Shown here: positions 41,924 through 59,570 of the stretch, piece by piece | Layout: each line of letters opens with the position of its first letter | Position numbering within the stretch: the stretch's first letter is position 1 | NCBI RefSeq assembly: GCF_017357105.1 | Contig: NZ_CP071596.1 | Span: 3,472,001-3,536,000, forward strand | Source: Natronosalvus caseinilyticus | GTDB taxonomy: Archaea > Halobacteriota > Halobacteria > Halobacteriales > Natrialbaceae | Direction: 5' to 3' | DNA length: 64,000 nucleotides | Translations under genes and position numbers: made by a program | Notes under the pieces: model-generated | What the model was told of the DNA's origin: nothing | Database searches by the model: none | What the model saw: only the letters and a program-made list of their open reading frames with translations

Positions 41924-41942
41924 ATGGGCGCTACAGGATTTG
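41924..41942. repeat. Distal attachment site (tRNA-Arg 3' fragment)
   Basis: Nineteen bases identical to 59472-59490, covering the acceptor stem, T-stem and part of the T-loop of tRNA-Arg plus two flanking bases. A further 14 bases of the same tRNA (ACCCGTGACAACTT) recur at 42018-42031, so the original fragment was probably longer and is now split. Confidence 0.8.
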
Positions 41943-41950
41943 GAACCACG

Positions 41951-41987
41951 GGAAGAGAACCTGCAACAAAGTTGCAGAACCTCTTCC
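41951..41987. repeat. Palindrome inside the distal attachment region
   Basis: GGAAGAG-AAC-CTGCAAC-AAA-GTTGCAG-AAC-CTCTTCC: two 7-bp stems separated by a symmetric AAC/AAC internal loop, with an AAA apical loop. It lies in the 75 bases that separate the two tRNA-derived pieces (41924-41942 and 42018-42031). It could be an integrase arm site, a terminator or the core of a small inserted element. Confidence 0.6.
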
Positions 41988-42189
41988 ATAACTCGCGCTT
42001 CGCGCTGCTCAGCGCTCACCCGTGACAACTTCCCAGTTCCGGGGTGCTCGGCACTCCGTGCCTGCGCGCCCGGGCTCCTGACGCGGTGGGCCAAGCAGGC
42101 CCCCGACCCCACGTGGAAGCGCCAGTCGGCCACCGCGGCGTGGTTCGGCGGGGGTGGCTCGAGGCACCGTGGTCTTCCTCACAGAGACT

Positions 42190-43206
42190 ATGACCACGAC
42201 ACTCGACCCGATCGACCCAGACGAAGCGTACGACATGTACCTCACCGACCGCGAGCCCGACGTCACCACCAGCACGCTCTACGCCCACCGCTCACGACTC
42301 GGCCACTTCCTTCGGTGGTGTGACGAAACTGGTATCGAGACGATCGCCGACCTGACCGGTCGCGATCTCCACGCCTATCGGCTGTGGCGGCGTGACGACG
42401 GTGACCTCAACCGCGTGAGCGAGAAAACGCAGATGGATACCCTTCGGGTGTTCATCCGCTGGTGTGAACAGCTCGGCTTCGCGCCGACCGACCTGCACCT
42501 TGCCGTCCAGAGCCCGACGCTCGAACCGGAGGACAACGTCCGCACGCAGATGCTCGACGCCGAGCGCGCCGAGGCAATCCTCGAGTACCTCGAGCGCTAC
42601 GAGCACGCCTCCTTCGATCACGTTGTCCTTACCCTCTTCTGGCACTGTGGACTCCGTATCGGTGCCCTGCATACGCTCGACGTCGAGGACTACGATCCAA
42701 CGAGCCGCTCGCTCGAGGTTCATCACCGGCCCGAGAGCGAGACTCCCCTGAAGAACAAGGGCGGTGGTGAGCGCCATATCGCCCTCGCTGACGACACCTG
42801 TGCGATCCTCGACGACTGGCTGGCCGATCGTCGACCAGCGGTGACCGACGCCTTCGATCGTGAGCCGCTGTGCGCCTCGCCACACGGTCGCAGTCACAAG
42901 ACCAACCTTCGGAAGGTGGTATACATGTGGACGCGTCCCTGCGTCGTCACCGGAGACTGTCCCCATGGGCGGACGATCGACGACTGTGACGCCGCTGGCT
43001 CGACGAAACCCTACGCGTGTCCGTCATCAGTGTCGCCGCACGCGATCCGGCGTGGCGCGATCACCCACTGGCTGAAATCGGAGTGGCCCGATCACGCCGT
43101 GAGCGATCGGGCGAACGTCTCGCGAGAAGTGCTCGAGGTTCACTACGACCAGCGCTCGGAATCGGAGAAGATGGAACAGCGACGCCAGTATCTGGATACC
43201 ATCTAA
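42190..43206 (+). CDS. Tyrosine site-specific integrase
   Basis: 338 residues from ATG 42190. An N-terminal SAM-like core-binding domain (DEAYDMYLTDREP, STLYAHRSRLGHFLRWC) is followed by the catalytic domain: Arg156 in CGLRIGAL, Lys190 in LKNKGGG, His284/Arg287 in PHAIRRGAITHWL, and the nucleophile Tyr319 in VLEVHYDQ. A cysteine/histidine insert (CVVTGDCPHGRTIDDC, then ACP) between the catalytic boxes looks like a zinc-binding loop, as in many haloarchaeal integrases. The gene lies about 250 bases inside the distal attachment site and points into the element. Confidence 0.9.
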   Translation: MTTTLDPIDPDEAYDMYLTDREPDVTTSTLYAHRSRLGHFLRWCDETGIETIADLTGRDLHAYRLWRRDDGDLNRVSEKTQMDTLRVFIRWCEQLGFAPTDLHLAVQSPTLEPEDNVRTQMLDAERAEAILEYLERYEHASFDHVVLTLFWHCGLRIGALHTLDVEDYDPTSRSLEVHHRPESETPLKNKGGGERHIALADDTCAILDDWLADRRPAVTDAFDREPLCASPHGRSHKTNLRKVVYMWTRPCVVTGDCPHGRTIDDCDAAGSTKPYACPSSVSPHAIRRGAITHWLKSEWPDHAVSDRANVSREVLEVHYDQRSESEKMEQRRQYLDTI

Positions 43207-43214
43207 TCCCTTCC

Positions 43215-43232
43215 GGCTCTGTTGAAACCCTT
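43215..43232. repeat. IS-like terminal sequence (left arm)
   Basis: GGCTCTGTTGAAACCCTT is the near-inverse of 46107-46123 (AAGGATTTCAACAGAGC), with one difference over the 17 shared bases. Ends of this type (GGCTCTGTTGAAA) are familiar from haloarchaeal insertion sequences, as far as I recall. No transposase gene lies directly inside. Confidence 0.55.
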
Positions 43233-43440
43233 GATAGGTGATATGATTCGAGAGACGTGCTGCATACAGAGCGCGAATGTTGCACGGGATGAGGAAGGAC
43301 CAACGCGGAAGACCGAACGCTCAGTACAGGCGGGGTACTCCCTGTCCAGCCAAGACTACGCATCTCTCACAGGAGTACCTACAGCCCCTCTTTTAGTTAT
43401 CCAAATAACTATTTCCGGGCGGGTCTAAATAATTCAACAA

Positions 43441-44229
43441 ATGAGACGACGACGGTATCTCCTTGGATTGCTCACGGCACCAGCTGCTGGCGTAGCGGGG
43501 TGTCTTTCACGTGATTCAAGTCCGGATGACGGAACTGAATTGGCCCCCGAGGATGACCGAGACGTCGACACGGTTGCCACGGAGACGTTCGACGACGATT
43601 TCACCCCAATCTGTGCCGACGGTGAATCTCTCGAATCGGATCTTGAGGGATTATACGCGGAACTCGTGACCGATCACGAGTTTTTCAGAGACACAGAGAG
43701 CGGTCGATACGGCGTTCGTGGTCGAATTGCGGCGAGGGAAGATGGGAGTTTCCCGGAGGTCCAAGCAGAATTTTCCGACGAGTCCCATGCAAAGGATACA
43801 GGATTCAGCGTTGCTGAGGACGAGACGTATTTGTTCACGGTGGTGACTTCTGAAGGCGAGCCCAACGCGATAGATGGGTATTCGCTCACCGTCGAAGAAG
43901 GCGGGGTTGACGATATCGGGACTGTCCCTGAGGAGTACGCAACGATTGATGGGGAGTGGGGCCAGATTGGAACGTACGCTGACGTTTCGGTGTATGGATA
44001 CGCTGGGACAGTTACCAATGATCACACGAAGGATGTCAGGCTATACCCACACCTGAAGGCGTACCTCGATGAGACGACAGTGGCATACGCTGGCAAAAGT
44101 ACTGAATTTTTTGACGATCTCGCTCCGGGAGACACGCAAACAGTCTACTTCCCCTATCCACGATGCGATCCCGCGAAAATTGACCACGTTGAGGGATGGC
44201 TCGAGTGGTCGACGATGAATAACCCGTAG
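43441..44229 (+). CDS. Lipoprotein with FxLYD-like domain
   Basis: 262 residues from ATG 43441. The signal is MRRRRYLLGLLTAPAAG followed by the lipobox VAGC (Cys21), a Tat-style start with an arginine cluster. After an acidic linker, the last roughly 90 residues form a beta sandwich typical of FxLYD-type domains (YGYAGTVTNDHTKDVRLYP, KSTEFFDDLAPGDTQTVYF). It is expected to be anchored outside the membrane. TAAATAATTC just upstream supplies the promoter region. Part of the lower-G+C segment of the element. Confidence 0.7.
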   Translation: MRRRRYLLGLLTAPAAGVAGCLSRDSSPDDGTELAPEDDRDVDTVATETFDDDFTPICADGESLESDLEGLYAELVTDHEFFRDTESGRYGVRGRIAAREDGSFPEVQAEFSDESHAKDTGFSVAEDETYLFTVVTSEGEPNAIDGYSLTVEEGGVDDIGTVPEEYATIDGEWGQIGTYADVSVYGYAGTVTNDHTKDVRLYPHLKAYLDETTVAYAGKSTEFFDDLAPGDTQTVYFPYPRCDPAKIDHVEGWLEWSTMNNP

Positions 44230-44610
44230 CTCGCTTCGCGGAAGAAACGAAGAATCTCTCTTGAAGCCAGCAACTCCAATCAGTCTCTCGCAATAGTGTT
44301 GATCACTGGCCATAATTCAAAGCCAGATATAATTGGGTGACACAACCAGTAAGCAGATCTACGGAACAGCTGGTTCATTGGACTCAGTGTGAAACAAACG
44401 AAGCCATCGTGCTGTACTCATCCTCTGTATCTCGCACACCGATTCTGACAGCAGCTCGATAGTCCGTAGAGTCCCTGCGAGATACAAGGCGCGTATCTCA
44501 CACGAGCACCACGGTTGAAGGGTATAGTTCCCTCACACTCAGAAGGTGGGCCCCACTGCGAATCAGCGTCGGGGAAAGGTGTTAATGCCTGCCACGCCGA
44601 CGTTCGATAC
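44230..44610. other. Intergenic stretch before the AsnC regulator
   Basis: 381 bases. A minus-strand frame at 44418-44612 is open but has no similarity or sensible composition. No repeat of note. Probably regulatory or decayed DNA. Confidence 0.4.
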
Positions 44611-45132
44611 ATGGGACGCGACTTGGACGACGTTGACCGGAGTATCCTCTACCTGTTACAGCGGGACGCTCGGGGCACGACAGCCGAAGCAATGGGCGAC
44701 AAGGTGGGCGTCTCGGCCAGTACCATCCGCAATCGTATCGACCAACTCGAAGATGACGGTATTATCAAAGGCTATCACCCGGAGATAGATTACGAAGCGG
44801 CCAATCTCCCTTTGCAAATCACGTTCGTTATCTCCGTGCTGCCAACTGAACTACAAAACTACTCGGAGCAAATTCGACAGATTCAGGGTGTTATCGACGT
44901 TCGTGAAATGCTAACTGGCCGACGGAACGTCCACGTCGATGTGGTCGGGACGAATTCGAGGGATGTTACCCGAATCACCGACGCCATCCACGAGATCGGC
45001 GTACAAATCGAGTCGTCAGAGATGATGAGGCAGCGGTACGTCCAACCGTTCAACCACTTCTTCCTGCAAAGTGCAGAGAAGGACGCGCGCGACAAGACAC
45101 CAGACGAAGAAGACGAGTCTGCAACTGAATGA
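44611..45132 (+). CDS. Lrp/AsnC family transcriptional regulator
   Basis: 173 residues from ATG 44611; an upstream opening from 44515 adds 32 unconserved residues. N-terminal winged HTH (DDVDRSILYLLQRDARGTTAEAM, then VSASTIRNRIDQLEDDGII) and an effector domain (LPLQITFVISVLPTELQNYSEQI, VIDVREMLTGRRNVHVDVVG). The last 25 residues are charged (KDARDKTPDEEDES). It probably regulates genes of the element or host metabolism; the target is unknown. Confidence 0.82.
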   Translation: MGRDLDDVDRSILYLLQRDARGTTAEAMGDKVGVSASTIRNRIDQLEDDGIIKGYHPEIDYEAANLPLQITFVISVLPTELQNYSEQIRQIQGVIDVREMLTGRRNVHVDVVGTNSRDVTRITDAIHEIGVQIESSEMMRQRYVQPFNHFFLQSAEKDARDKTPDEEDESATE

Positions 45133-45358
45133 GCGGTGTTGATTTCCGTATTCCACAGTTTTTCAGCCGCATATCGTGTAATCAGCAACAGCCAATCCGG
45201 AAATACGCAATAAATTCTGGCGAATCTGTGTTATCTCGAATATGCACATCTATTGTTACAAAACGGTTATACCGCTACTCGCTCTATCGGCTACCAAAAA
45301 TGTAACCACCGGAGTCCGACGGCCCCTCACCCCTCACAGTGGACGCCTCACCAAAACA

Positions 45359-45649
45359 ATGAACGACAACACCTTCAACGCACTCGCACACGAACAGCGC
45401 CGAACACTCTTGCTTGACCTTCTCGAATCGAATCCGCAGGATGCAGGGATTGAATCACTCACAGGAGAATCAGTACTGACTGACGCCGAACAACGTTTGC
45501 AGACCGGGATGTATCACGTCCACTTGCCCAAACTCGAAGACTACGGCTACATCGAGTGGAACGAAGAGACAAATGAAATCATCAAGGGGCCACAGTTCGA
45601 TGAGATTCGGTCGTTGCTCAAATTTATCGCGTCCGAAGGTGTAGAGTGA
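45359..45649 (+). CDS. Small HTH regulator (ArsR-like/DUF7344 type)
   Basis: 96 residues from ATG 45359. The sequence FNALAHEQRRTLLLDLLESNP opens a winged-helix fold, followed by MYHVHLPKLEDYGYIEWNEE as recognition helix plus wing. This composition is common among the many haloarchaeal regulators of about 100 residues. No metal ligands are seen. Upstream DNA is A+T rich. Confidence 0.75.
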   Translation: MNDNTFNALAHEQRRTLLLDLLESNPQDAGIESLTGESVLTDAEQRLQTGMYHVHLPKLEDYGYIEWNEETNEIIKGPQFDEIRSLLKFIASEGVE

Positions 45650-45707
45650 CGACGAAGAGGCCGCCTTCGCCGCCACATTAAGCGTAGTCGCACAATCAGA
45701 CTTACAC

Positions 45708-45950
45708 ATGAGTCCGTCGTCACCCACTTCTTCAAACAATGTATTGAGCAATGCCGTAATTGAGGCTGTTGCCAAGGAAATGGATGTTCACCCCACTGAA
45801 CTGCCCGAGAAACTGCACGACGTAATCGACCCCGACTCATTAGATTCGCTATTCGCCAGCAGGAACCCGACAGGCGGAACTGTGACGTTCACTTACTGCG
45901 GCTACGAAGTCACCGTCACCGCAGACGGCGACGTGAGCCTTGAAGAATAA
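45708..45950 (+). CDS. HalOD1 output-domain protein
   Basis: 80 residues from ATG 45708. A helix (LSNAVIEAVAKEMDVHPTELPEKL), then IDPDSLDSLFAS, then the beta hairpin GTVTFTYCGYEVTVTADGDV, the layout of the haloarchaeal HalOD1 domain often found as an output module in signalling. It stands alone here. The next 40 codons in another frame (RYNVLAGKELDPHAPGAVVSR, ending near 46046) look like the tail of a decayed gene. Confidence 0.75.
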   Translation: MSPSSPTSSNNVLSNAVIEAVAKEMDVHPTELPEKLHDVIDPDSLDSLFASRNPTGGTVTFTYCGYEVTVTADGDVSLEE

Positions 45951-46294
45951 CGGTTCACTCCGGCGCTACAACGTCCTCGCAGGAAAGGAACTCGACCCAC
46001 ACGCCCCCGGTGCCGTCGTTTCTCGTATAGACGAAGATGAAAACTAAGCCACCGAGTTCTGCTGAGTACACCCCCTATATTCAGCAGGCGAATCCAATAA
46101 GATACTAAGGATTTCAACAGAGCTTCCCTTCCCTATCTTTCTCGACTCCTTTCTCACAACTCCACAGTGACTTCCCTATTCATGTTGTCGAAGAAGCAAC
46201 TCTTCACGACGAGAGAGCCATCTTCTCTATGAAATATTCCGATGGTAACAATTGTGTTTGGACTATGTGTAATGGTGCTGTAGTATGAGATTGC
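45951..46294. other. Intergenic stretch with IS-like end
   Basis: 344 bases. Contains a gene-tail-like short frame at its start, a hairpin (CTGCTGA 46059-46065 / TCAGCAG 46081-46087) and AAGGATTTCAACAGAGC at 46107-46123, the inverse of the sequence at 43215. No complete gene. Confidence 0.5.
46107..46123. repeat. IS-like terminal sequence (right arm)
   Basis: Inverse complement of 43215-43231 with one difference. With the adjacent hairpin at 46059-46087 it looks like the end of a haloarchaeal insertion sequence or MITE. The two arms enclose the lower-G+C genes at 43.4-46.0 kb. Confidence 0.55.
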
Positions 46295-46792
46295 ATGGCA
46301 CGAAAAACAGCAAGCGGTGAGATCGGGGAAGAATCGTTCGACACAGTACCCACGGGGCGCCGAATCGCGGTGATGAAACTTGTTCCAGCCGTCGTGCTGG
46401 GCGTGCTCATCGGTGGCCTCGTGGCCCTTTCGTTGTCGAATATCGGCGGTGCGGCGGCCGGGTTCGTCGTGGCTACGTTGCTGTCGGCATACTATCTCTA
46501 CCGAAAGCCCCTCCCGAGTGCTGTGTTCGGGACGGGACTGTATCTGACCGCCGGCCTACTGGTCTTGGCGCCGATCCTCTTCTACGTCCCGACGATCCTC
46601 GCCCCCGATAGCAGCTCTGGGGCGGAAGAGGCTGGTGCGTTCGTCGGCAGTATCCTCGGTCTGTTTCTCTGGGGGTTCGTCTTCTTCCTCATCGCCCTCG
46701 TGGTGTTCACGCTGGGCTACTTCAGTAACCGACGCGCTAAGAAGAAACTCAGTGCTCGAGCGAGCGCCTCACAGGAGAGCTATGATCCGTAG
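46295..46792 (+). CDS. Membrane protein, translationally coupled to DUF4352 protein
   Basis: 165 residues from ATG 46295. A soluble start (MARKTASGEIGEESF) is followed by about four hydrophobic helices (MKLVPAVVLGVLIGGLVAL, GGAAAGFVVATLLSAYYLY, FGTGLYLTAGLLVLAPILF, FVGSILGLFLWGFVFFLIAL) and a basic end (NRRAKKKLSARAS). Its stop overlaps the next start by 11 bases in another frame. Function unknown. Confidence 0.7.
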   Translation: MARKTASGEIGEESFDTVPTGRRIAVMKLVPAVVLGVLIGGLVALSLSNIGGAAAGFVVATLLSAYYLYRKPLPSAVFGTGLYLTAGLLVLAPILFYVPTILAPDSSSGAEEAGAFVGSILGLFLWGFVFFLIALVVFTLGYFSNRRAKKKLSARASASQESYDP

Positions 46793-47705
46793 AGTCTTCC
46801 TCGGCGTCCTCGGCTCGCTCGTCGCCACTGCGGGCACGAGCGCCTCAGCAGCCGCACAGGAGGACACGAGCGCGGTCGTCGGCGAGTTGATCGAAGGAGA
46901 CCCGTTACACCTCCTCGTCGAAGGAGCGCGGCTGACGGACTCGCTCGACGAGTTCACGGAGGCCGAGGCAGGGTCCGAGTTCCTCGTCGTCCGGATCGCC
47001 TACAAGAACACCAGCGACGAGTTCCATACGGTGAGCGGCCTGCTGAGCACACGCATTCGCGACGATGAGTCCTACACCTACGACCAGAGTTTCTACGGGA
47101 CGGCCGAGGCCCTCAATGACGGCCAGATCGCGCCGGGCGAGGTCGAACGCGGGGATCTCGTCTACGAGGTGCCCGAGGATGCGTCGGGATTCGTCCTCGA
47201 GTTCGACTTCGATATCGGTCTGTTCGGCGATCTCGAGCGGGCGGTGATCGATCTCGAAACCACGAGTGACGAGCCGGCGACGCTCGAGCAGGAGCTCGCG
47301 ATCGACGTCCACGGGGTCGGTGACACCGTCGAGCACGAGGGGACGGCCGTCACCGTCAACGAGACAACCACGGAGACACAGCTTGACGAGTTCACGGAGG
47401 CCGCAGCCGACCACGAGTACGTCATCGTCGACCTCACGGTCGCAAACGCCACAGGCGAGGAACAGCTCGTCTCGACGCTGTTGCAGATGCAACTCAAGGA
47501 TGGCGAGGGACTGAGTTACGACGAGGATCTGGGCGCGACGTCGTCCCTTGAGCGCGCCTTCGAGGAGGGGGCGCCGATCGCGGATGGAGACGAGCGCCGA
47601 GGCCAGCTCGCTTACGAGGCCGAGGCGGAGCGCGAGCCACTGTACTGGGTGTTCGAGTTCTCGCTGTTCGCCGAGGGGGACAAGACGTTCTGGCAACTCC
47701 GTTAA
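46782..47705 (+). CDS. Secreted protein with two DUF4352-like domains
   Basis: 307 residues from ATG 46782. Signal-type N-terminus MIRRVFLGVLGSLVATAGTSASAAAQ with a likely cleavage after the alanine run. Two tandem beta-sandwich repeats follow: LTDSLDEFTEAEAGSEFLVV with YKNTSDEFHTV, and QLDEFTEAAADHEYVIVD with VANATGEEQLV. The LDEFTEA-x-A word is repeated. DUF4352 domains are extracellular and often bind or stabilise surface proteins; the role here is unknown. Coupled to the upstream membrane protein. Confidence 0.75.
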   Translation: MIRRVFLGVLGSLVATAGTSASAAAQEDTSAVVGELIEGDPLHLLVEGARLTDSLDEFTEAEAGSEFLVVRIAYKNTSDEFHTVSGLLSTRIRDDESYTYDQSFYGTAEALNDGQIAPGEVERGDLVYEVPEDASGFVLEFDFDIGLFGDLERAVIDLETTSDEPATLEQELAIDVHGVGDTVEHEGTAVTVNETTTETQLDEFTEAAADHEYVIVDLTVANATGEEQLVSTLLQMQLKDGEGLSYDEDLGATSSLERAFEEGAPIADGDERRGQLAYEAEAEREPLYWVFEFSLFAEGDKTFWQLR

Positions 47706-48246
47706 TAGAATTGCCTTCGTATTTTCTTTCCACCATGTCGAGTAATGTATAGCGCTAATTGACACATCACGTGTAGTTTTCTTCTGTAGGTTACACCTGC
47801 GCGATCCACCTGCAAATCACATCAGAGAATGCGCCGCCCTCGGGGGGTTTAAAGAGGTTTAGCGAACGAGTTATACATTCCGAGCAATATACTCAAATAG
47901 AGAAATGTAGACTAAACTCTCGCTCGCGTGACATCTCATTGGTACGGGTCTCTCACGCGAGCTTGAAGTGATGAGTTCGAGGAACTCAGAGGAGTTCCCC
48001 ATGGTCAGTTAGCCCCGGCTCTACTTAGCCTTGCGGGCTCCTGCGACCAAACGGCGTCTCTGGGTTTCTCTTGACGGCAGTGACGCGCCGTAGAGATAGG
48101 TCATCGACACAGCTGGAGATGTACGCTCGGAAATTCACCGCGGTAGAACACCCCGCACCCTCGAACACGAACGGTAGCAAGTTCCTGCTTTCACGGCCGG
48201 AATTGTTGGATATTCAGGATAAACTGGTTTTCTGGAGGCGGTTCGC
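47706..48246. other. Intergenic region with two strong hairpins
   Basis: 541 bases. Hairpin one: CTCGCGTGA (47923-47931) with TCACGCGAG (47953-47961). Hairpin two: GGAACTC (47981-47987) with GAGTTCC (47992-47998), four-base loop. The arrangement reminds me of the 3' end of IS200/IS605-type elements or the RNA made there, but no transposase or tnpB frame is next to it. A 60-codon frame at 48071-48253 is open without known similarity. Confidence 0.45.
47923..47998. repeat. Tandem hairpins (possible IS200/IS605-type end)
   Basis: Two perfect stems of 9 and 7 bp in 76 bases, separated by GCTTGAAGTGATGAGTTCGA. Possible remnant transposon end, structured RNA or terminator for the DUF4352 operon. 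Confidence 0.4.
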
Positions 48247-49938
48247 GTGGTAACGAACGCGGACCGTAGCAGGAGGTCGCCCTCTAAGCCGGCTTACGCG
48301 GTCATAGGCTGCTCTGAGTGCTCACAGCTGTGGATTGTCTACCAGCTCCGGGAAAAAGACACCATCTTGTGTCCTCGATGCGAGAAGGAATTTCCTGCCC
48401 GAAAGCGTCGAATACTGTCCGAGCACGATCGATTCGAAGCCGCGCGTAAATCACGGACTCGAAGACTGGCCGAGCGAGCAAATGCGCCAGTGCCGGAGTT
48501 CAAACCTGTTGCTGACGAACTCCTCTTCGCGGAGGTTTTCGCAGAGGAAGTTGATGATCGGCCGTTCTACGCTGACGTGTTCGCTGAGGAGGTTGACCTC
48601 CAGATTCCGGAAGCAGATGCGTTTGAAGCGCTGGTTGATGATCGGCCGTTCTACGCTGACGCGTTCGCTGAGGCGGTTGATGATCAGCTGTCTTCCGTCA
48701 ATGAACACGACGTCGACGAGAGTTCCTCGCGCCCGTCCAAAAGAACTGGGCGAGTTCCGTATCTGGACCTCTCTGATGCAGAGGTGCCGTGGAAGGGCGA
48801 TCAACGAGCGATGAAGAAAACGCTACTGCTCAAAACCGCAGTACTGCACCCAGATCGGGCAGCTAAGGGGATCCCGTTTTCAGTACTGCTGGATGAGGTA
48901 TTCGGCGATGAATGGGAGACTGGTGATCGAAACTATCACCTGTTGCACGACTTCATCGCTCAATACCCGGAATATCTCGAAAAGTCGAAGCTCTCTGGCG
49001 ATTTCGTATGGGTCCGCCCGGCTGAGAAAGGGGTCACCTTGATACGTAGCATAGACGAGTTAGGAAACGGAGACGGCGGCGGGGTAGCCACGACAAGTCG
49101 GGATAGTGCAAGTAGCGCTCTCCCAAGGGAGCGAGTCGAGAGAGTGTTACGGTCAACCCGTCGGATTCAGACAGATCCTCAACGGGCGCTGTTGCTGAGA
49201 CAACTGGCTGAACACGGGGAAACGATGATCGATGAAAAAGGGGAGCCGAAGACGATCGAACCTCACGGAAAGCCAGTGGAGGCAGTATGTAGATTTACCG
49301 ATTCGGGAGAGGCAAACCGGACGCGTGCAGTGTATGAGTGCGCCGCTGACGTATTAGAAGAATTCTACGACTACGCAACGTGGGTAACGTATACGACCCC
49401 GCGAGAGTGTATCTCGTCAGTGTATGATTCAGTACGAGTTATAAGAGAGACGCTAACCCGTCTCCATCGGGATCGTTTCACCTATGATGCCCAGTCGCGC
49501 CCCCGACCGGGGTACACCCCAGACTATGTGTGCGTGCTCGAGCCACACCGTGATCTGGTGGCTCATCTCCACGTCGTCTATGGAGGTGAACAACAAGTGA
49601 TGAAGCCTGCAGACCTACAGGCTGACTGGCATGAGTTGCTGAATGCACCGGCTGGGAAACCTGCTCAAGTGGCTGTTCGATCGCTCTCCTTAGAACCGTC
49701 AGGGTGGTGGGTAACTGATTCTGAGGATCATGAGACAGACATCCGTGACTACCACCGGTCGGAGCTCCGAAATCTCGCACGGTTAGCGTCGATGACCCCG
49801 CAGGAGATTTATGGACTTGCGGATGACCTCGAGAACGGAACTCGAGTATCGGAAGGCCGTGACCTCGCTGGTTTGGCCTTACCCTTTGCTACAGATACGC
49901 GATTCACGTCAGCATCGAAAACGCTCACACAGGGATGA
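48247..49938 (+). CDS. Zinc-ribbon (DUF5817-like) protein with Rep-like HUH region
   Basis: 563 residues from GTG 48247. Residues 17-80 form a zinc ribbon (CSEC at 22-25, CPRC at 42-45) followed by a basic helix, like DUF5817 proteins of haloarchaeal plasmids. Residues about 92-146 contain two near-identical copies of VDDRPFYAD-x-FAE-x-VD. Residues about 185-265 look like a winged-helix unit (KTLLLKTAVLHPDRA, GIPFSVLLDEVFG). The C-terminal half resembles rolling-circle Rep proteins: WVTYTTP at 379-385 (motif I), YVCVLEPHRDLVAHLHVVYGG (HUH pair His440/His442, motif II), then DLQADWHELLNAPAGKPAQVAVRSL. A YxxKY motif III is not obvious; Tyr502 or Tyr522 are candidates. It may start replication of the excised element; this is inference. 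Confidence 0.6.
   Translation: MVTNADRSRRSPSKPAYAVIGCSECSQLWIVYQLREKDTILCPRCEKEFPARKRRILSEHDRFEAARKSRTRRLAERANAPVPEFKPVADELLFAEVFAEEVDDRPFYADVFAEEVDLQIPEADAFEALVDDRPFYADAFAEAVDDQLSSVNEHDVDESSSRPSKRTGRVPYLDLSDAEVPWKGDQRAMKKTLLLKTAVLHPDRAAKGIPFSVLLDEVFGDEWETGDRNYHLLHDFIAQYPEYLEKSKLSGDFVWVRPAEKGVTLIRSIDELGNGDGGGVATTSRDSASSALPRERVERVLRSTRRIQTDPQRALLLRQLAEHGETMIDEKGEPKTIEPHGKPVEAVCRFTDSGEANRTRAVYECAADVLEEFYDYATWVTYTTPRECISSVYDSVRVIRETLTRLHRDRFTYDAQSRPRPGYTPDYVCVLEPHRDLVAHLHVVYGGEQQVMKPADLQADWHELLNAPAGKPAQVAVRSLSLEPSGWWVTDSEDHETDIRDYHRSELRNLARLASMTPQEIYGLADDLENGTRVSEGRDLAGLALPFATDTRFTSASKTLTQG
48550..48681 (+). repeat. 84-base-period direct repeat within the Rep-like gene
   Basis: A 48-base unit starting GTTGATGATCGGCCGTTCTA occurs at 48550-48597 and again at 48634-48681 with few differences, in the same frame (28 codons apart). 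The near-identity at DNA level implies a recent duplication. Confidence 0.75.
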
Positions 49939-50434
49939 TTTACGATGGCACGGTTTGGTACCGTCTCCTGTTAGTTACTAACGCGAAGAGCAAAGAATAG
50001 CGTAGAACGCGTTGGCTGGAGAACGTCAGTAGCAAGTAGTCCGGCTGACTGAACAAATCGACCCCCTACGCAAAACGACGGGGGTGGTATCATGAACACG
50101 GGTGGGCTGGCCGCCGGACAAGTCTATCTCTCTTCCCAACTGGAGTATATGAACCTTTCAGGGACGAAATCTCGTTCCTTACAACCAGTAGTTCGTGAAC
50201 TATCGGGGATGACTACGTCATCCCCGGCAATCGAATCATGAAGGACGTATAGGTTGTATATCACCCATCTGCGCTCAGGTACGGACTCCGATTTCGCGAA
50301 TCGGCCGGTTCCTGTTTCTCCCCGCAAGTGAATTGGATGTCCAACATTATTTCTTTCACTGATCGAAGGGTACGATACGCCCAGCTGCATCTGCGCCCTC
50401 TCACGCCCGTCAGCGTGTTCTTGCTCTGGGCTGG
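49939..50434. other. Intergenic region with hairpins, candidate origin
   Basis: 496 bases downstream of the Rep-like gene. Contains ACCCCC (50061-50066)/GGGGGT (50080-50085) around a 13-base A-rich loop and a stronger hairpin at 50204-50226. A minus-strand frame (50124-50438) is open but unlike any protein. Rolling-circle origins are often hairpins close to rep, so an origin is possible. Confidence 0.4.
50204..50226. repeat. Perfect 10-bp hairpin
   Basis: CGGGGATGAC (50204-50213), loop TAC, GTCATCCCCG (50217-50226). Either a bidirectional terminator between the convergent Rep-like and HTH genes or a nick-site hairpin. Confidence 0.6.
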
Positions 50435-50755
50435 TCATCCATCATTCTCGGCTGCAGACGCGCTCTCGGCGTCTGTGGGGCCCTCCTCGCCGTCACTGGT
50501 GGCTGACTGCGCGATGAGCGTCTCGAGATCGACGCCGTGATCGTCCGGGATCCACCAGACGCGCCCCCGAGCGCCGACCTGCTTCGAGGCGAGAACCCCC
50601 CGATCGGCGAGCTCCTCAAGCTTCTTGTGTGCCGTCCGACGCGCGATCCCGACTGCCTCGGCGACCTCGCTGGAGGTCAGCGGCTCCGCGGCATCCTCGC
50701 GATCGACGAATGCCTCGAGGCACGCGTCGGCCTCAACTCTGTACGGTCGTGTCAT
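50435..50755 (-). CDS. Winged-HTH transcriptional regulator
   Basis: 106 residues from ATG 50755. An N-terminal helix (PYRVEADACLEAFVDRED) leads to the HTH: EPLTSSEVAEAVGIARRTAHKKLEELADRGVLASKQVG, then a wing (GRVWWIPD). The C-terminal 25 residues are acidic and disordered. Comparable small repressors sit at the control regions of haloarchaeal plasmids and proviruses. It faces the SWIM gene across a region with repeated operator-like sites, so it is likely to control that switch. Confidence 0.78.
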   Translation of the reverse strand: MTRPYRVEADACLEAFVDREDAAEPLTSSEVAEAVGIARRTAHKKLEELADRGVLASKQVGARGRVWWIPDDHGVDLETLIAQSATSDGEEGPTDAESASAAENDG

Positions 50756-50794
50756 CGATGATTTGGACTACACTGCCGAGTGCCTTAGATCGTT

Positions 50795-50884
50795 CCGTTG
50801 TGGGCAATGCCGTTGTAGGTTTATCACCAATAACGACAGTCTCAGGTGTCGTGAAAGGGCTTTATAGTCTATGCCGTTGTAGGT
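50795..50884. promoter_or_regulatory. Repeated operator-like sites in the HTH/SWIM control region
   Basis: ATGCCGTTGTAGGT occurs exactly at 50807-50820 and 50871-50884, and a partial copy CCGTTGTGGG lies at 50795-50804. TTTATAG at 50861-50867 is a TATA element for the rightward gene, so the third site falls between TATA and the likely transcription start, a repressing position. The other sites lie near the leftward promoter of the HTH gene. Confidence 0.6.
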
Positions 50885-50974
50885 ATAGATGAGGACAGAC
50901 GGCCGCCTCGGCGTGTTTCGGAACGCGCGGGTGGTAGGACACCCGCGGCCGGTCCTCAATAGGGAGCAAGGACC

Positions 50975-51544
50975 ATGTCAACCTACGCAACCGACCGCAA
51001 AAACAGTACCGCCGGCGACCGACTTGACCGCCGCGACGTGCGTGCGCTCACCGAATGCATGACGGTGATGGAACACGCCCCCGAGGTGGCGGGCGCTGAC
51101 GGGCTGTTCGTCGTCGTCACCCAGAGCGGCAAGACGTACACGGTCGATGTGCTCGACGAGCCCCGCTGTACGTGCCCGGACGCCCAGTACAATCTTCCGA
51201 CCGCCGATGGTCGGCGGACGTGCAAGCACGCCGCCCGCGTCACCTACGAGACGGGAATGCGGCCAATCCCGGCGTGGGTGAACCGCGACGCGCTCGAGAG
51301 CCAGTTGCTTGAGGCCACCCACGTCGACGGCGAGCCCATCTTCGCCGCTGGTCACGTGGCTGGCGACGGTGACGATGTCGAGGCCGGCAGTGACGGGCGT
51401 GGCACCCCACGGCGTGCGATCGCCGACGGCGGCCGTGAGCGCCCGGCCGACTGCTGTTGTGTCGGCGAGCTTCCGTGCTTCATGTGCTGGCGGGCTGGCT
51501 TCCGAACGCCGGCGGACGAGAGCACGAGGGAAGCCGATGAGTAG
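50975..51544 (+). CDS. SWIM zinc-finger protein
   Basis: 189 residues from ATG 50975. The SWIM motif CxCx(n)CxH is C65-x-C67 (CTCPDAQYN) and C83-x-H85 (CKH). A second cysteine-rich patch near the end (CCCVGELPCFMCW) could bind another metal. SWIM domains bind DNA or proteins; in haloarchaea they are frequent on plasmids and proviruses, sometimes coupled to recombination. The next small gene starts eight bases before its stop. Confidence 0.75.
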   Translation: MSTYATDRKNSTAGDRLDRRDVRALTECMTVMEHAPEVAGADGLFVVVTQSGKTYTVDVLDEPRCTCPDAQYNLPTADGRRTCKHAARVTYETGMRPIPAWVNRDALESQLLEATHVDGEPIFAAGHVAGDGDDVEAGSDGRGTPRRAIADGGRERPADCCCVGELPCFMCWRAGFRTPADESTREADE

Positions 51545-51755
51545 TGCATCAGCCACGACTCAGGCAACGTGCGCCGACTGCGGGCGGCTGGTCGATTCGG
51601 GCGTGCTCGAGATCGTCTCGACGGGGTTCGGCCCCGGCAACAAGTATACGCTCGACTTTTGCTCGATCACGTGTCGAGCGCGCTGGCGGGGTGACGACGT
51701 CGTCCTCGCAACGACCCGACAAACGACGCTTTCGGCGAATGGTTGGATGGGTTAG
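51537..51755 (+). CDS. Small zinc-finger protein coupled to SWIM gene
   Basis: 72 residues from ATG 51537, overlapping the SWIM gene's end by eight bases. CADCG and FCSITC supply two CxxC-type pairs (the second with three-residue spacing, C-x3-C) around VSTGFGPGNKYTLD. A short zinc-binding adaptor by appearance; function unknown. Confidence 0.6.
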   Translation: MSSASATTQATCADCGRLVDSGVLEIVSTGFGPGNKYTLDFCSITCRARWRGDDVVLATTRQTTLSANGWMG

Positions 51756-51789
51756 AGGTAAGTCACTCTACCTTGTATATTCGGATGAA

Positions 51790-52677
51790 ATGGTAGTAGT
51801 GTTACTTGAATATTTATTGGCACTCCTGCTTATCCCTGCCTTCATACTTCATATTCTTCACTTCGAATGGTTCAAAAAGTACGTCTCCATCGTTTCTCGC
51901 TCTCTGTTCTCTGTTTTACAGATCTTTGTTGGGGTGATGTTTGGGGTGGTGTTGGTGATTCCGAAGTTAGTAGTTGGATCACTGAAAGCAGTCCTAATCG
52001 CTATCCTTTCCGTCGTTTTAGCAGCAATCTATCTGGTCACATTCGTGGTTCCATATGTTGGTGGGAAAGGGAATGTCTGGAGAGAGTCGCTGACGAACGG
52101 AGTGGTAGCGTCATACCTCGCCGTTCAGGTTCGTACTATGCGAGACATGATGGTTCGGATTGTAGCAGAAGAGGATGAACGACATCTCAGCTTCGACGAG
52201 CCAGAAAGGTACCGGACAGAGCTGGATCGAGTAAAGCAGGATGCGACAAACAGACTTGAATCGGGGGAGACACGATTGTCGATACTTCTTGGAGCCATAC
52301 TAATAGCAGCTCAGTTGGCAGGAGTAAAGGTGCTACAGGCCTCAATATATGGAATTCCTATGGATGTGGTAATCGAAGGCTGGCTATTAGTTATCGCGGT
52401 GTCGATAATTTACCGGTCTTCTGTGCTGGAATTCTTGGCATACAGTCCAGATGATGACTTTGAGTCTCTCGACAAGATGGATGCCGCATTAGGCTATCAA
52501 AAAGTTGTATCGCTTGTTGGGTTCGTTCAGGGATTGATGTTTTTGTTGGTGCTCATGGCGGCAGTTTCAAAAGTGAAATACAGTATAATCGAGGACGCGT
52601 TGAGGGCGATGTATACCGATGAACCTTGGGTGTCTTTCACGTGGGAAAGGCTGACTAACTCATCAAACGAACGATAG
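51790..52677 (+). CDS. Multi-pass membrane protein of unknown function
   Basis: 295 residues from ATG 51790; ATG 51739 in the same frame is an alternative. Lower G+C than the neighbours. Hydrophobic segments: VVVLLEYLLALLLIPAFILHI, the LFSVLQIFVGVMFGVVLVIP/LKAVLIAILSVVLAAIYLVTF pair, then a soluble charged region (EEDERHLSFDEPERYRTELDRVKQDATNRLESGETR), a further pair (LSILLGAILIAAQLAGVKVLQ, VIEGWLLVIAVSIIY) and a last helix (VSLVGFVQGLMFLLVLMA). No family is recognised. It ends seven bases from the convergent metallopeptidase gene of the restriction operon. A role in defence is speculation based on position. Confidence 0.6.
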   Translation: MVVVLLEYLLALLLIPAFILHILHFEWFKKYVSIVSRSLFSVLQIFVGVMFGVVLVIPKLVVGSLKAVLIAILSVVLAAIYLVTFVVPYVGGKGNVWRESLTNGVVASYLAVQVRTMRDMMVRIVAEEDERHLSFDEPERYRTELDRVKQDATNRLESGETRLSILLGAILIAAQLAGVKVLQASIYGIPMDVVIEGWLLVIAVSIIYRSSVLEFLAYSPDDDFESLDKMDAALGYQKVVSLVGFVQGLMFLLVLMAAVSKVKYSIIEDALRAMYTDEPWVSFTWERLTNSSNER

Positions 52678-52684
52678 CGAGGTC

Positions 52685-53413
52685 TCAAACCACGAGCGAA
52701 TTGCCGTTCACACGAAGCCACTCCCGCCGGTCCTTATAGTCGGGGGTCAACGTCCCAACGGTATTCCAAAACGCGTCTGAGTGGTCGTCGTGGACATTGT
52801 GCGCCAGCTCGTGAACGATCACATAATCTTGGATGCGAACAGGCGCGAGAATCAGTCGCCAGTTCAACCGGATCGTGCCGTCGAGGTACTCGCCCCAGCT
52901 CCCCTCGAGCTCGCCGACCTCGATCGGGACCGATGAGAGGCCGAGCTTCGCCTCGTAGCGCTCACTCCGCTCGGGGAGATCGGCATCGGCTCGTTGGAGG
53001 TACCAGTCGACGATGGCTTGACGCTTGCGGCGGATGCTGACGTGATCGCTCGGCGCGTCGAACCGATGAGTGCGGAGGGTGAACTCGTTGCCATCGAACG
53101 AGAGCTGTGGCTCGGGGACGTCGGCTTCGATTACGTCGAGGCGGTACTGGCGGCCTCGGTAGGGGAGTTTCTCGCCGCTCAGATACTCACGGGGGTAAGG
53201 TGGCTCCGACTGCTCTTTGAGGTGATAGAGCTTCTCGAGGAGCCACTCACGGCGGCTCTCGAGGACGTCCTCGACCTCGTCGATGGTCATCGTCATCGGC
53301 GCCCGAACGGTTAGCTCGAGGGAGTGGTCAAGCGAGAGGTCAAGCGTTTCGCGATCCGCGACCCAGTCGATCTCGTAGGGGATGACGGTCTGGCCGATAT
53401 GAAACGTTCTCAT
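52685..53413 (-). CDS. YgjP/DUF45-like zinc metallopeptidase of the hsd operon
   Basis: 242 residues from ATG 53413, whose first bases overlap the hsdR stop (ATGA). The gluzincin motif HELAH is at 201-205 with a third His in HDDHSDAF. The N-terminal half is beta-rich with a DVLESRREWLLEKL helix, as in the DUF45 (YgjP-like, M48-related) family often located in type I restriction operons. The exact role in restriction is not established; coupling suggests stoichiometric or regulatory linkage to HsdR. Confidence 0.82.
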   Translation of the reverse strand: MRTFHIGQTVIPYEIDWVADRETLDLSLDHSLELTVRAPMTMTIDEVEDVLESRREWLLEKLYHLKEQSEPPYPREYLSGEKLPYRGRQYRLDVIEADVPEPQLSFDGNEFTLRTHRFDAPSDHVSIRRKRQAIVDWYLQRADADLPERSERYEAKLGLSSVPIEVGELEGSWGEYLDGTIRLNWRLILAPVRIQDYVIVHELAHNVHDDHSDAFWNTVGTLTPDYKDRREWLRVNGNSLVV

Positions 53414-56382
53414 TCGTAGTGGGCACGAGCCAGCTGGATGACGCGATTCGTCAGCTCGTCGCGCTCGGCAGACGTTAAGTCGACCTCGGTCTTGTAGAGT
53501 GCGATCTTCACTCGCTTGCGGATCTTCTGGAGAACGCCCACACGCTCTTTCCACTCGACGAACGTCACTGACTCCTCGACAGCGGCCACGAGCCGCCCCG
53601 TGAGCTCGAGCACGACCTCCTCGTCGAGCTCGGCTTTCTGCTCGCCGAGGACGTCCTCGAGGGCGTGGTAGAACGAGAGTTCGGTCGTCCCGTCGAGGCC
53701 CTTGCGGCGGGCGCGCTGGTGGCGTGACTGCATCTCATTGAGCACCTCTCGAAGCTCTTCGATGATCTCGCGATCGGAGAGGCGCTGTTGTTTGTACTTC
53801 TCGATGAGCTCCTCGACGCGTTCCTGTAGCGAGCCATAGTGGACGGGGTCCTCGTCGAAGCGTACGTTTAGCTCGTGTTTGATGGCGTGTTGCATCTCAC
53901 TCGCTCGAGCTTCGTCGCTCTCTAACGTATCAAGTTTCGCGTCAAACTCGCTCTTGTCCATCACCGAGACGGGCTCGTCGTTCAATACCTCGATTCCCGA
54001 GGAGCGGATGTGGTCCTGAATCAACTCCCGGACCTGCTCGCCGGTCCCCTCGAGGTTCATCTCCTCGTCACGGTAGCGTTGCTTTGTTTGAGCGTAGACG
54101 TCGCTCAGGCGCTCGAGATCCTCTTTGTACGGGTTCGCCATCGGATCCGGGAGGACGATATCCATGAGCGTCGAGAAGCGCTTGAACGCGTTGTTGAACT
54201 CGATGCGGGTGTCCTCGGGCTCGAGCGTCTGGACGCACGCCTCAACGTCGTCGAGATCATCGAAGAACATGATGGCCTTTCGGTGGGCGGCCTCGAGCTC
54301 AGCTCCTTTATCCTCGAGGGGGACCAGTGCGCGCTCGACCTCGTCGGCGCTGAACATCGCGAGCGCTTCGCGGAGATCGTTCGACACGCCGTAGTAGTCG
54401 ATGATCAGCCCGTAGTTCTTGTCGGTGAACGGCCGGTTCACCCGGGCGATCGCCTGTAGGAGGGTGTGCTCTTTCAGTGGCTTGTCAATATACATGACCT
54501 GTGCGACAGGGGCGTCGAAGCCGGTCAACAGCATGTCACAGACGATGAGGAGCTCGACCTCGCCATCGGGATCGACGAACGACTCCTTGTACTCGGCGAG
54601 CTCCGAATCGCTTGGTGCCCAGCGTTTCACGGCCTCGGGGTCGTTGTGGCCGTGCGAGATTACGACGCGTGACTCTGGGCCGTTCAACCGATCGAGTTTC
54701 TCTTTGTAGGTGATGGCCGCGCGCTTGCTCGTGGTGACGACCATTCCCTTGAACGTGTCCGCGATTTCGTTCTCGTAGTGGTCGATGATATCGAGGGCGA
54801 CCTGCTCGATGCGTGACTCGGCTTCGGCGAGATCCTGTGTACGAGCGTAGCGCTTCTTGATCTCCGCTTTCTCGGCGTCGGTGTAGTCGGCGAAAATCCG
54901 ATCGAACATGCGATCGAGCGTCTCCCCCTCGAGGTGCATGTCGGCGAGGCGGCCCTGATAGAGGATCTCGACGGTCGTGTCGTCGGCGAGCGACTGGTCG
55001 ATCGTGTACGTATCAATGTAGTTGCCGAACGTTCGCCGGGTGTCGCGATCGTCCTTCTCGATCGGCGTCCCCGTGAAGCCGATGTAGAACGCGTTCGGGA
55101 GCGCCGTCCGCATGTTATTCGCGAGGTGCTTGTACTGAGTCCGATGGGCCTCGTCGACCATCACGTAAATGTCGTCGTCCGTCGAGAGCTCGGGGAAGTC
55201 ACCCTCCTCGTGCTCCTCGAGCTGGAACTTCTGGATGAGGGTGGTGATCGTCCCACCCGCGTTACTCGAGAGTTTATCGCGGAGGTCGTCGATCCCTTCG
55301 GCGCGCTCAGGGTTCGGGAAGCCACAGCGTTCGAACGTTGCGTGGATCTGTCGATCCAGTGCCTGTCGATCGGTGACGAGGACGAGCGTGGGATCGGCCT
55401 TCTCGCGGCGAAGCTTGAGGCCGAGGAAGAGCATCGTGAGCGACTTCCCTGACCCTTGAGTGTGCCAGACGACGCCACCCGGTGCTTCGCGTTGGTGACG
55501 CTTCTCGATCCGCTCGATGGCTTTGTGTACTGCCCGGTACTGCTGGTAGCGAGCAACCAGTTTCACGCGCTTGTTCTGCTTGTTCTCGAAGACAGTGAAA
55601 TGGCGGAGCTGATCGAGCAAGCGCTCGGGCTCGAACAGCGCGTAAAGCATCCGGTACTGGTCGGGAACGTAGCCGTCGAGATCGAAGCGATCGGCGAGGT
55701 ACTCGTCGTCGACGGGGTAGGGATCGCGCCACGGCTTGTACTGGCCTTTCGGCGTGCCGTAGGTGCCCATCACCGCGCCCTCGTACCACGTCGCGACTGA
55801 GAACTGGTTGTATCGAAAAAGTCGCTCAGCGCCTTCTGAGCCGGTTTCAGTCCGTTCGTTCTGGTAGCGCTGGAGTTGCTCGAGTGCCTCGCTTCGTGGT
55901 TCTTTGATTGTCGGAGCCTTGCATTCGATCACGCCGAGCGGGATGCCGTTGACGAAGAGTACGATGTCCGGCTTGATCGTCTCGATCGGTCCCTCGACGC
56001 GGAATTGGTTGAGCGCGAAGAAGTCGTTATTCTCGGGGTGCTCGTAGTCGATGTACTTGACCGTCTGGTGTTTCTTGCCGTGGCCGCGATCCTGTTTGAC
56101 CGTTGTATGTCGCACGAGCAGCTCGTGAATCTGCTCGTTCTCGTGCATTGTGCTCGTCCCCGCAGTCTGCTGAATCTCGCGGACGACCTTGTTCAGGTTG
56201 TTCTCGTCAAGCCAAGGGTTCAAGCGTTCGACGGCATTACGAAGGCAGGGCTCGAGTACAACAGAGGATAGCGTTTCACGGGATTCATTCCATCCCGTTT
56301 CCTGCTGATCAACGACTTTCCAACCGAGTTGCGCAAGGGTCTTGAGGGCGGGGCGTTCGGTCTCGGCATACTCGTTGGACAT
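53410..56382 (-). CDS. hsdR: Type I restriction enzyme, R subunit
   Basis: 990 residues from ATG 56382. The N-terminal nuclease has Asp139 and Glu153-x-Lys155 in PDIVLFVNGIPLGVIECKAP. The SF2 translocase motor has Walker A TQGSGKSLTM (about 308-317), the DEAH box in VMVDEAHRTQYK, and motif VI near LLQAIARVNRP. The C-terminal helical domain begins near residue 800 and links to the methylase. It cleaves DNA at a distance after ATP-driven translocation when HsdS sites are unmethylated. It starts one base after the hsdS stop. Confidence 0.93.
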   Translation of the reverse strand: MSNEYAETERPALKTLAQLGWKVVDQQETGWNESRETLSSVVLEPCLRNAVERLNPWLDENNLNKVVREIQQTAGTSTMHENEQIHELLVRHTTVKQDRGHGKKHQTVKYIDYEHPENNDFFALNQFRVEGPIETIKPDIVLFVNGIPLGVIECKAPTIKEPRSEALEQLQRYQNERTETGSEGAERLFRYNQFSVATWYEGAVMGTYGTPKGQYKPWRDPYPVDDEYLADRFDLDGYVPDQYRMLYALFEPERLLDQLRHFTVFENKQNKRVKLVARYQQYRAVHKAIERIEKRHQREAPGGVVWHTQGSGKSLTMLFLGLKLRREKADPTLVLVTDRQALDRQIHATFERCGFPNPERAEGIDDLRDKLSSNAGGTITTLIQKFQLEEHEEGDFPELSTDDDIYVMVDEAHRTQYKHLANNMRTALPNAFYIGFTGTPIEKDDRDTRRTFGNYIDTYTIDQSLADDTTVEILYQGRLADMHLEGETLDRMFDRIFADYTDAEKAEIKKRYARTQDLAEAESRIEQVALDIIDHYENEIADTFKGMVVTTSKRAAITYKEKLDRLNGPESRVVISHGHNDPEAVKRWAPSDSELAEYKESFVDPDGEVELLIVCDMLLTGFDAPVAQVMYIDKPLKEHTLLQAIARVNRPFTDKNYGLIIDYYGVSNDLREALAMFSADEVERALVPLEDKGAELEAAHRKAIMFFDDLDDVEACVQTLEPEDTRIEFNNAFKRFSTLMDIVLPDPMANPYKEDLERLSDVYAQTKQRYRDEEMNLEGTGEQVRELIQDHIRSSGIEVLNDEPVSVMDKSEFDAKLDTLESDEARASEMQHAIKHELNVRFDEDPVHYGSLQERVEELIEKYKQQRLSDREIIEELREVLNEMQSRHQRARRKGLDGTTELSFYHALEDVLGEQKAELDEEVVLELTGRLVAAVEESVTFVEWKERVGVLQKIRKRVKIALYKTEVDLTSAERDELTNRVIQLARAHYE

Positions 56383-56383
56383 A

Positions 56384-57583
56384 TCAGTTATTTATGTTAA
56401 CGCGCACTTTTCCAGTGAGGAGGTCCTGCATGAGACCGCGTTTAAGTTCTTGAAGTATTGTGCGTCTTTTGTATTCTTGTTCAATCTTAGCTGTCACCTG
56501 ATTTAGAACATCTGCAATTTCGTCTTGTTCTGATTTTGGTGGTTTGGGGACCTTGAGCGAGTTTAATACTTTTTGATTCAACTTTGGTTGCGCTGTTCCA
56601 GTTGCGTATGGCTCATAGCTTAATACTTCAAAATAGTTCAATAAATAAACAAGGGACATATCACTGTTTGGTTTCAGAACATGTGCGTGGTTATTAACCC
56701 ATGATTTTCCACTTACTTTAAATGAAATGGGCTTGTTTCTTGATAATAGGTTTTCTCCATCTTCTGCTAGTAGTAAGAGTTCGTCGTTAAATAACCAGTC
56801 ATCGACAGTATCAATTTGCCCCGATGCACCGTAATAAGGAATGTCTCCCTCCATCTCCTCACGGTCGGTTTTCTTTACAGGAATTCGTTGGCTATCCAAA
56901 TTGTCAACACATTCACTAACGGTGCATACATCCCAACTACTTGGTATTTTAAAATCAAAGGGCCCCACTCTAAATGGTTGGTACTCTTTGTGTGTTAACC
57001 CATTAATGATTAGATCATTTCTAAGACCGCGTTTCAATTCTTCTGTTTTCTCAATAATCTCGTCTGTTTGCTGGATCTCCTGATCAACTACTGAGAGTAT
57101 ATTAGTGATTTGCTGCTGTTCTGAGAGCGGCGGAGCAGGCATTTGATAATTTTCTAAACGGTTTCTGTCCAAACTTGGAATCGATGTTTGTTCAAGTTCA
57201 TCTGATAGAGAATGTAATGACATATGGTGATAAACAAACCCTAAATCTATTTTATCATGTTTAAATTCCGATAAATAAAAAGCCGTATCTGACGGCCAAC
57301 ATGGTTCACGAAGTAGATAAGCTTCTCCTGCTGAACCTTTCCGCCCGATTACAATCGTGTCATCATCGATCAGGGATTTGTTTACATAATCGTATAATCC
57401 ACTTGAACCCACTGCTGGGATTTCTCCGCCAGTATCAGGGAGTGATTTTCCATATTTTACTTCCGATATTTCTGATATTTTTGTCACACACCATTCTTTA
57501 GGTATTTGGATAGATTTTGGCCCGAGTTGTGCAAATTTGTACCCTTCTTGGAGAGATTTTTCACTGAATTGTCCGCTGGTCAT
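56384..57583 (-). CDS. hsdS: Type I restriction enzyme, S (specificity) subunit
   Basis: 399 residues from ATG 57583, overlapping the hsdM stop (ATGA). Two half-molecules: target recognition domain 1 from about residue 25, first conserved helix with [16 protein letters not shown], target recognition domain 2 ([17 protein letters not shown]), and second conserved helix with [17 protein letters not shown]. The two TRDs decide the bipartite DNA sequence. The gene is visibly A+T rich relative to hsdM and hsdR, a usual sign of separate exchange of S genes. The recognised site cannot be read off. Confidence 0.93.
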
Positions 57584-59142: not shown

Positions 59143-59473
59143 ACCCCTATCCAGTCATTGATGCTATGTGTAACTTTCCGTTCCGAGAGAGAATATCTGG
59201 GGATCGCTCTTGATGGTGTTCGACCTCCGAGCTCGTGGCTTCTTTGGGCCTTCATGCGCGGGCGCGTGCTGATCAATCAGTATCAGTATCGTCGCGACCC
59301 CGATGTATGTAGCCCGTGATTTATGTCCCTGCGCGTGGGTGTAACTCTCGAGGAATTCGCACGACAGCCTCGACCCCCGTGCCAGATCGTCATGAACTCT
59401 CGAGCCGGAATCGACCGATCGTTTATACGGCCTCGCCGCTTTCGGTCAACTTCCAATCGGTTAAATTGAGTAT
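59143..59473. other. Intergenic region between hsdM and tRNA-Arg
   Basis: 331 bases. Holds the hsdM promoter (a TTACAC element about 30 bases before ATG 59142 on the minus strand) and ends with the proximal attachment site at 59472-59490. No gene or strong repeat seen. Confidence 0.45.
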
Positions 59474-59547
59474 GGGCGCTACAGGATTTGAACCCGTGAC
59501 AACTTGGTCCGAAGCCAAGCACTCTGTCCAGACTGAGCTAAGCGCCC
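59474..59547 (-). tRNA. tRNA-Arg (anticodon UCG)
   Basis: Folds as a full cloverleaf on the minus strand: 7-bp acceptor GGGCGCT/AGCGCCC, D-stem GCTC/GAGT, anticodon stem CTTGG/CCAAG with loop CTTCGGA (anticodon TCG, codon CGA), T-stem ACGGG/CCTGT with TTCAAAT loop. No intron; the 3' CCA is not encoded. Its 3' half served as the attachment site for the adjacent element. Confidence 0.92.
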
Positions 59548-59570
59548 ACACCACCTGCTTTTCGTCGACC

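Follow-up and report, generated by a model that had tools for sequence, protein, structure and literature searches.

A tRNA match split by predicted hairpins: a candidate attachment site of an integrated element in Natronosalvus caseinilyticus

Integrases of the IntSNJ2 type, known from haloarchaeal pleolipoviruses and integrated elements such as SNJ2, Halfgib1 and pHK2, use a core of 13–15 bp at the 3' end of a tRNA gene. In a review (PMC8371274), many SNJ2-like integrase operons are described as lacking the small accessory genes Orf2 and Orf3, and strict identity blocks are considered insufficient for archaeal attachment sites, in which the flanking bases are also needed. Integrases that target tRNA genes are usually described by one uninterrupted block of identity. 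The element studied here, contained in a stretch of 64,000 nucleotides from Natronosalvus caseinilyticus (the window, whose positions are used throughout), departs from this description, since its left site holds a 14-bp core with a tRNA match that extends beyond it, but part of this match is displaced by predicted hairpins while its agreement with the host is kept. Through such a displaced, host-matched piece, the rules that govern archaeal attachment sites, which are poorly known, become open to test. It also means that island finders seeking one continuous repeat would misplace the ends of elements with split sites.

Architecture and recurrence of the split site

The element spans positions 41924–59505. 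On the left it starts with a displaced tRNA 3' end, and its other end is at a tRNA-Arg(TCG) gene that is intact (59472–59548, minus strand). Its limits are given by the duplicated tRNA 3' end and by the identity with a sister element in genome G114, which starts exactly at 41924 and continues for 1367 bp (95.8%). An earlier note on this DNA had described a 34-base tRNA block that is unbroken at 59472–59505 and divided at the left end into pieces of 19 and 14 bases. Both statements hold, as positions 41924–41942 and 42018–42031 are exactly identical to the tRNA, and 59472–59505 is their continuous counterpart, the right site. The 75 bases counted between the two pieces are a real interruption, but the left match can be followed up to 41947 (ATTTGgAACC, with one extra G) and shares ACC with the right piece, so that the net insert is reduced to ~70 bp (41948–42017). 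This insert is flanked by ACC on both sides, and its ends are not inverted repeats by eye. The palindrome reported inside the interruption is present at 41951–41987 (hairpin H1, with AAC interrupting the stem on both arms), and it is accompanied by a second predicted hairpin, H2 (41995–42015; GCGCT...AGCGC).

The left piece (f1, 41924–41947, plus strand) is the displaced 3' end of the tRNA-Arg gene, and its first 14 bp are the core common to those relatives that have a bare core, followed by the T loop and the extra G. The right piece (f2, 42018–42031, plus strand) is the displaced continuation of the tRNA, comprising the 5' half of the T stem, the variable region and the start of the anticodon stem. 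Directly to the right of f2 there is a motif conserved in sites of the window type, CCCAGNTCCGGGNTGCTCGGC (42032–42052, plus strand), and the gene for the tyrosine integrase (42190–43206, plus strand; a longer GTG start is possible at 42154) starts ~160 bp to the right of the left site. In the 64 kb of the window, the 19-mer has 2 matches where none is expected, and the 14-mer has 3 matches at ≤2 mismatches where 0.31 are expected. The suspicion that the 14-base match might be fortuitous was discarded on this count and on the host permutation given below.

The same architecture is found beside related integrases. The protein encoded in the window (Pfam PF00589 and PF02899) has matches at E values up to 1e-30 in 116 of the 125 genomes of the family, and the tyrosine recombinase residues R-K-H-R-Y are present in all 34 aligned rows, among them those of SNJ2 and Halfgib1. 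When the upstream side of the best 30 integrase loci was read, 5 showed a split site, 23 a bare core and 2 no recognisable core. Another 40 loci, taken nearly in score order, were classed by eye, and comparison with the tRNA of the respective host confirmed a further five split sites, four of them at tRNA-Phe (G094, G018, G114 and G088) and one at tRNA-Arg (G088), while two further loci appear split but are doubtful, the stretch fetched containing no tRNA. With the inclusion of G256 and of a second site in G055, a genome with two left sites in a row, the total reaches 12 split sites, in which the order is tRNA 3' end, T loop, hairpins and next tRNA segment. These sites are distributed over three tRNA genes, tRNA-Arg(TCG), tRNA-Arg(CCT) and tRNA-Phe, and 11 of the 12 lie beside IntSNJ2-like tyrosine integrase genes, the second G055 site being a remnant with no integrase left. 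The unusual split attachment site suggested in the earlier note is supported by this recurrence at three tRNA genes, and by the agreement between f2 and the tRNA of the host itself.

Two tandem hairpins are predicted for eleven of the 12 inserts, and a strong hairpin with a weak one for the second G055 site. The hairpin sequence varies between elements and the two-hairpin shape is kept; in a comparison with 200 mononucleotide shuffles of each insert, the fold was equalled by 0–2 shuffles for ten of the 12 and by 12 and 14 for the other two. Several stems, as read directly in the sequence, are interrupted by identical bases on both arms, such as the AAC of the window H1 and a TC in the H2 of G119 and G077. 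The split stretch of the window itself has a strong predicted fold (z -2.6), a feature that, together with a plus strand that is antisense to the tRNA and a position just upstream of the integrase gene, would fit a stretch acting as RNA, either as a transcript directed against the host tRNA (antisense or decoy) or as a folded leader of the integrase mRNA. This explanation seems very unlikely, given that an Rfam scan yielded no family above threshold (a 26-nt match to RsmV fell far short of its cut-off and was disregarded) and that a folded tRNA offers a poor target for antisense pairing in its paired regions. The spacing of the antisense pieces also suggested a bipartite guide RNA of the H/ACA kind, an idea that was dropped because both pieces greatly exceed such guides in length and the fit hangs on the one extra G of this copy.

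Distribution of the insert and match to the host tRNA

The window palindrome is a single copy in its own genome and, at ≤3 mismatches, it occurs in 4 of the 392 genomes of the order (G000, G114, G119 and G256). All four copies lie directly upstream of a related integrase gene, that of G256 being broken. A miniature inverted-repeat transposable element (MITE) or other dispersed repeat, which in its plain form had been the competing suggestion for this very small insert, was rejected on these grounds, and it is also opposed by the unrelated hairpins that occupy the same point in other elements. A search for related loci in wider genome contigs and viral contigs recovered no relative. The pattern for the stretch to the right of f2 gave 9 matches in genome contigs, one of them haloarchaeal (Natrinema versiforme JCM 10478), and none in viral contigs, and the pattern CTCGCGCT..CGCTCACCCG was found in 20 of the 392 genomes, 5 of which are members, the other 15 having neither the tRNA piece nor the hairpin.

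The second piece of the split sites follows the tRNA of the host. In G119, where the element lies in tRNA-Arg(CCT), this piece reads as tRNA-Arg(CCT); in G077 and G256 it has the bases of their own host's tRNA-Arg(TCG); and both left sites of G055 carry the unusual CCCACG variant of that host. In a permutation of 7 elements over 6 tRNA variants, from which G114 was excluded as nearly a copy of G000, the longest exact matches summed to 95 for the true hosts against a mean of 68.6, and the true assignment was the highest, no other of the 2520 permutations reaching 95. G088 is the weak case, as other hosts give it an equally long match and the continuity of its second piece is lost after 11 bases. 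The stretches to the left of the core match the tRNA in only 5–7 bases. A separate observation concerns the G256 locus (L032, G256:C1:218989-222025), in which an early stop and the loss of the frame disrupt the integrase and the left tRNA piece has drifted; despite this decay, the second piece is still equal to 12 bases of the host tRNA.

This match would be explained without selection if f2 were the chromosome's own copy left at integration, with the exchange to the right of f2, a continuous site in the circular form, and hairpins that entered a useless left copy later. However, H1 is almost identical in G000, at tRNA-Arg(TCG), and in G119, at tRNA-Arg(CCT), with integrases that are 73% identical, and this near-identity at two different tRNA genes, along with the conserved motifs to the left and right of f2 in window-type sites, indicates that the insert travels with the element. 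Moreover, excision under that scheme would leave a broken tRNA, and we regard it as quite unlikely. In G112, which represents the empty site of G114, the left flank is the same, the tRNA is continuous and the palindrome is absent.

The insert has also been considered as the relic of a tRNA intron caught at integration, since archaeal tRNA sites with and without an intron have been proposed to undergo exchange with each other (PMC8371274, citing Sugahara et al. 2012). The insert tracks the integrase type, which makes such an origin extremely improbable. A tRNA intron as such was rejected, because tRNA-Arg(TCG) is uninterrupted in 22 of the 22 relatives inspected.

Proposed role of the split and alternative origins

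Rather than an accident, the split seems to be a functional component of the insertion site. We lean, by a small measure, towards the interpretation that positions 41924–42031 constitute the left attachment site of the element, organised as 14-bp core, T loop, two hairpins and f2, in which f2 would serve as a second half-site and the hairpins as a spacer. Strand exchange would probably take place in the 14-bp core at the tRNA 3' end, with a crossover point deduced from the relatives: in the bare-core relatives (23 of 30 loci), as in the circular virus Halfgib1 (PMC7911831), the tRNA match ends within these 14 bp or where they end. If the insert and f2 come with the element, an intact tRNA at the right junction and an insert on the left imply an exchange to the left of the insert. 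That a piece carried by the element matches the host points to a use for it, and the simplest use of the displaced piece would be as a second half-site bound by the integrase; a match to the target would then be required, as this sequence would be read by the same integrase in the chromosome. The hairpin pair may be a spacer whose folding or looping-out would allow the two halves to act together. Since the chromosomal site is continuous and the element site is split, each productive reaction would join one split and one continuous site.

Several observations weigh against this interpretation. The piece f2 is absent in 23 of 30 relatives and is thus not needed by the family at large, the length of the insert ranges from 46 to 107 bp across the split sites, the continuous site of L109 differs by one base from the tRNA of its host, and a split site was found in 0 of the 7 plasmid loci read, with no circular form seen. 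In addition, nearly identical integrases use split and continuous sites, which indicates that the hairpins are not essential. A first integrase tree of 34 rows unites the four split rows of the window type (100/100) and puts L010, also split, elsewhere. In a second tree (38 rows), which incorporates integrases from 16 of the 40 further loci and leaves out two rows with no core, nine bare-core rows (mostly near-duplicates) and L109, closely related rows of the tRNA-Phe group switch between split and continuous, and the split label requires 7 changes, at least 4 of them imposed by well-supported branches. Two rows of this tree are marked as doubtful splits, the continuous labels of L203 and L204 are based on an unbroken T arm and not on the host tRNA, and L202 has a few extra bases within the second part. 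In favour of the interpretation, the continuous sites at tRNA-Phe end at approximately the same base as the split ones in L176, L177 and L180, and slightly earlier in L182. Continuous sites with about this end also occur at tRNA-Arg (L110 and L109), beside more distant integrases. The alternation of labels suggests that the hairpin pair is readily gained or lost at one fixed point, with the second, tRNA-matching piece kept.

The alternation also bears on an explanation in which a hairpin module, either a small cassette moved by the integrase or one swapped between tandem elements, landed repeatedly at the T loop of sites that were once continuous, f2 being the rest of the old site and the hairpins having no role in recombination. 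This origin would account for the label changes among close tRNA-Phe integrases, for the continuous sites of close relatives and for the H1 of G077, which differs from that of its sisters, and it is also favoured by mini-cassettes without genes, which occupy the same tRNA ends and carry similarly designed hairpins. It is difficult to reconcile with a window palindrome that has no dispersed copies, with an insertion point that is always identical, and with an f2 that still matches the host after changes of host and tRNA gene, which would not be expected of a mere leftover. We consider it unlikely.

Head-to-tail arrays of these mini-cassettes, ~100–125 bp each, are located at the 3' ends of genes for tRNA-Arg and tRNA-Phe. 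A unit opens with the tRNA 3' end and the T loop, continues with a hairpin, an inverted T-loop box (TTCAAATCC) and another hairpin, and is followed by the next tRNA 3' end. Mini-cassettes occur in L006, L016, L017, L021, L038, L048, L130, L149, L180 and L183, where 10 of the 11 units listed have this form, and, by eye, also in L003, L007, L024, L026 and L028. They look like non-autonomous relatives of integrative elements. The window H1 and several of their hairpins (L048, L149 and L180) have a common motif type, GAACCtGC...GCAGAACCTC, with AAC unpaired on both arms.

Returning to the half-site interpretation, a more speculative version of it, which we hold to be improbable, is that of a folded attachment site. 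It would be used by a family of archaeal tyrosine integrases: the two hairpins would extrude from a supercoiled or single-stranded element and rebuild a tRNA-like core from the separated half-sites, and recombination would occur only if one partner is folded and the other plain. The split, continuous and bare sites would then be states of one evolving site, and the mini-cassettes its stripped-down relatives.

Other features were observed in these loci. The continuous sites of L109, L160 and L162 are directly followed by an AT-rich GAAATAAA stretch, which the split sites do not have and which may be an alternative element-side feature. L137 (G034:C1:3524270-3525270) shows two copies of the tRNA-Arg core only 32 bp apart, upstream of one integrase gene. 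In the window, the tRNA end of the element (52685–59142) encodes a type I restriction-modification set (hsdM, hsdS and hsdR) and a YgjP-like metallopeptidase.

Comparison with known systems

A literature search over titles and the starts of abstracts found no split tRNA attachment site with hairpins; the original IntSNJ2 paper is outside its coverage and may describe flanking repeats, and the novelty of the site is provisional. The IntSNJ2-type systems resemble the window element in having a related integrase (~38–39% identity over 90–94% to those of pHK2, SNJ2 and Halfgib1) and a tRNA target, and the 13-bp site of Halfgib1 corresponds to the start of the window core except for one base (G for A). 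They differ in that the window site is extended by the T loop, the hairpins and f2, and lies upstream of the integrase gene, whereas the attachment sites of Halfgib1, Humcor2 and Harhisp1 are downstream of it.

The haloarchaeal MITEs, palindrome-associated transposable elements (PATEs) and small mobile repeats, as presented in PMC3119063, are likewise short, non-coding and palindromic. In contrast to them, the insert of the window is single-copy, occupies one position and is not conserved in sequence between elements.

As in lambda-type attP, with its core and arm sites, the site of the element is more complex than that of the chromosome. The arm sites of lambda are not known to resemble its core, whereas the outer piece of the window site copies the target tRNA. 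Integron attC and CTX phage attP are folded single-strand sites of tyrosine recombinases. They involve another recombinase family and another target, and what is known for the window is its folding potential; the likeness would lie in hairpins with unpaired bases that differ between the strands, represented here by predicted folds with AAC/AAC or TC/TC internal loops.
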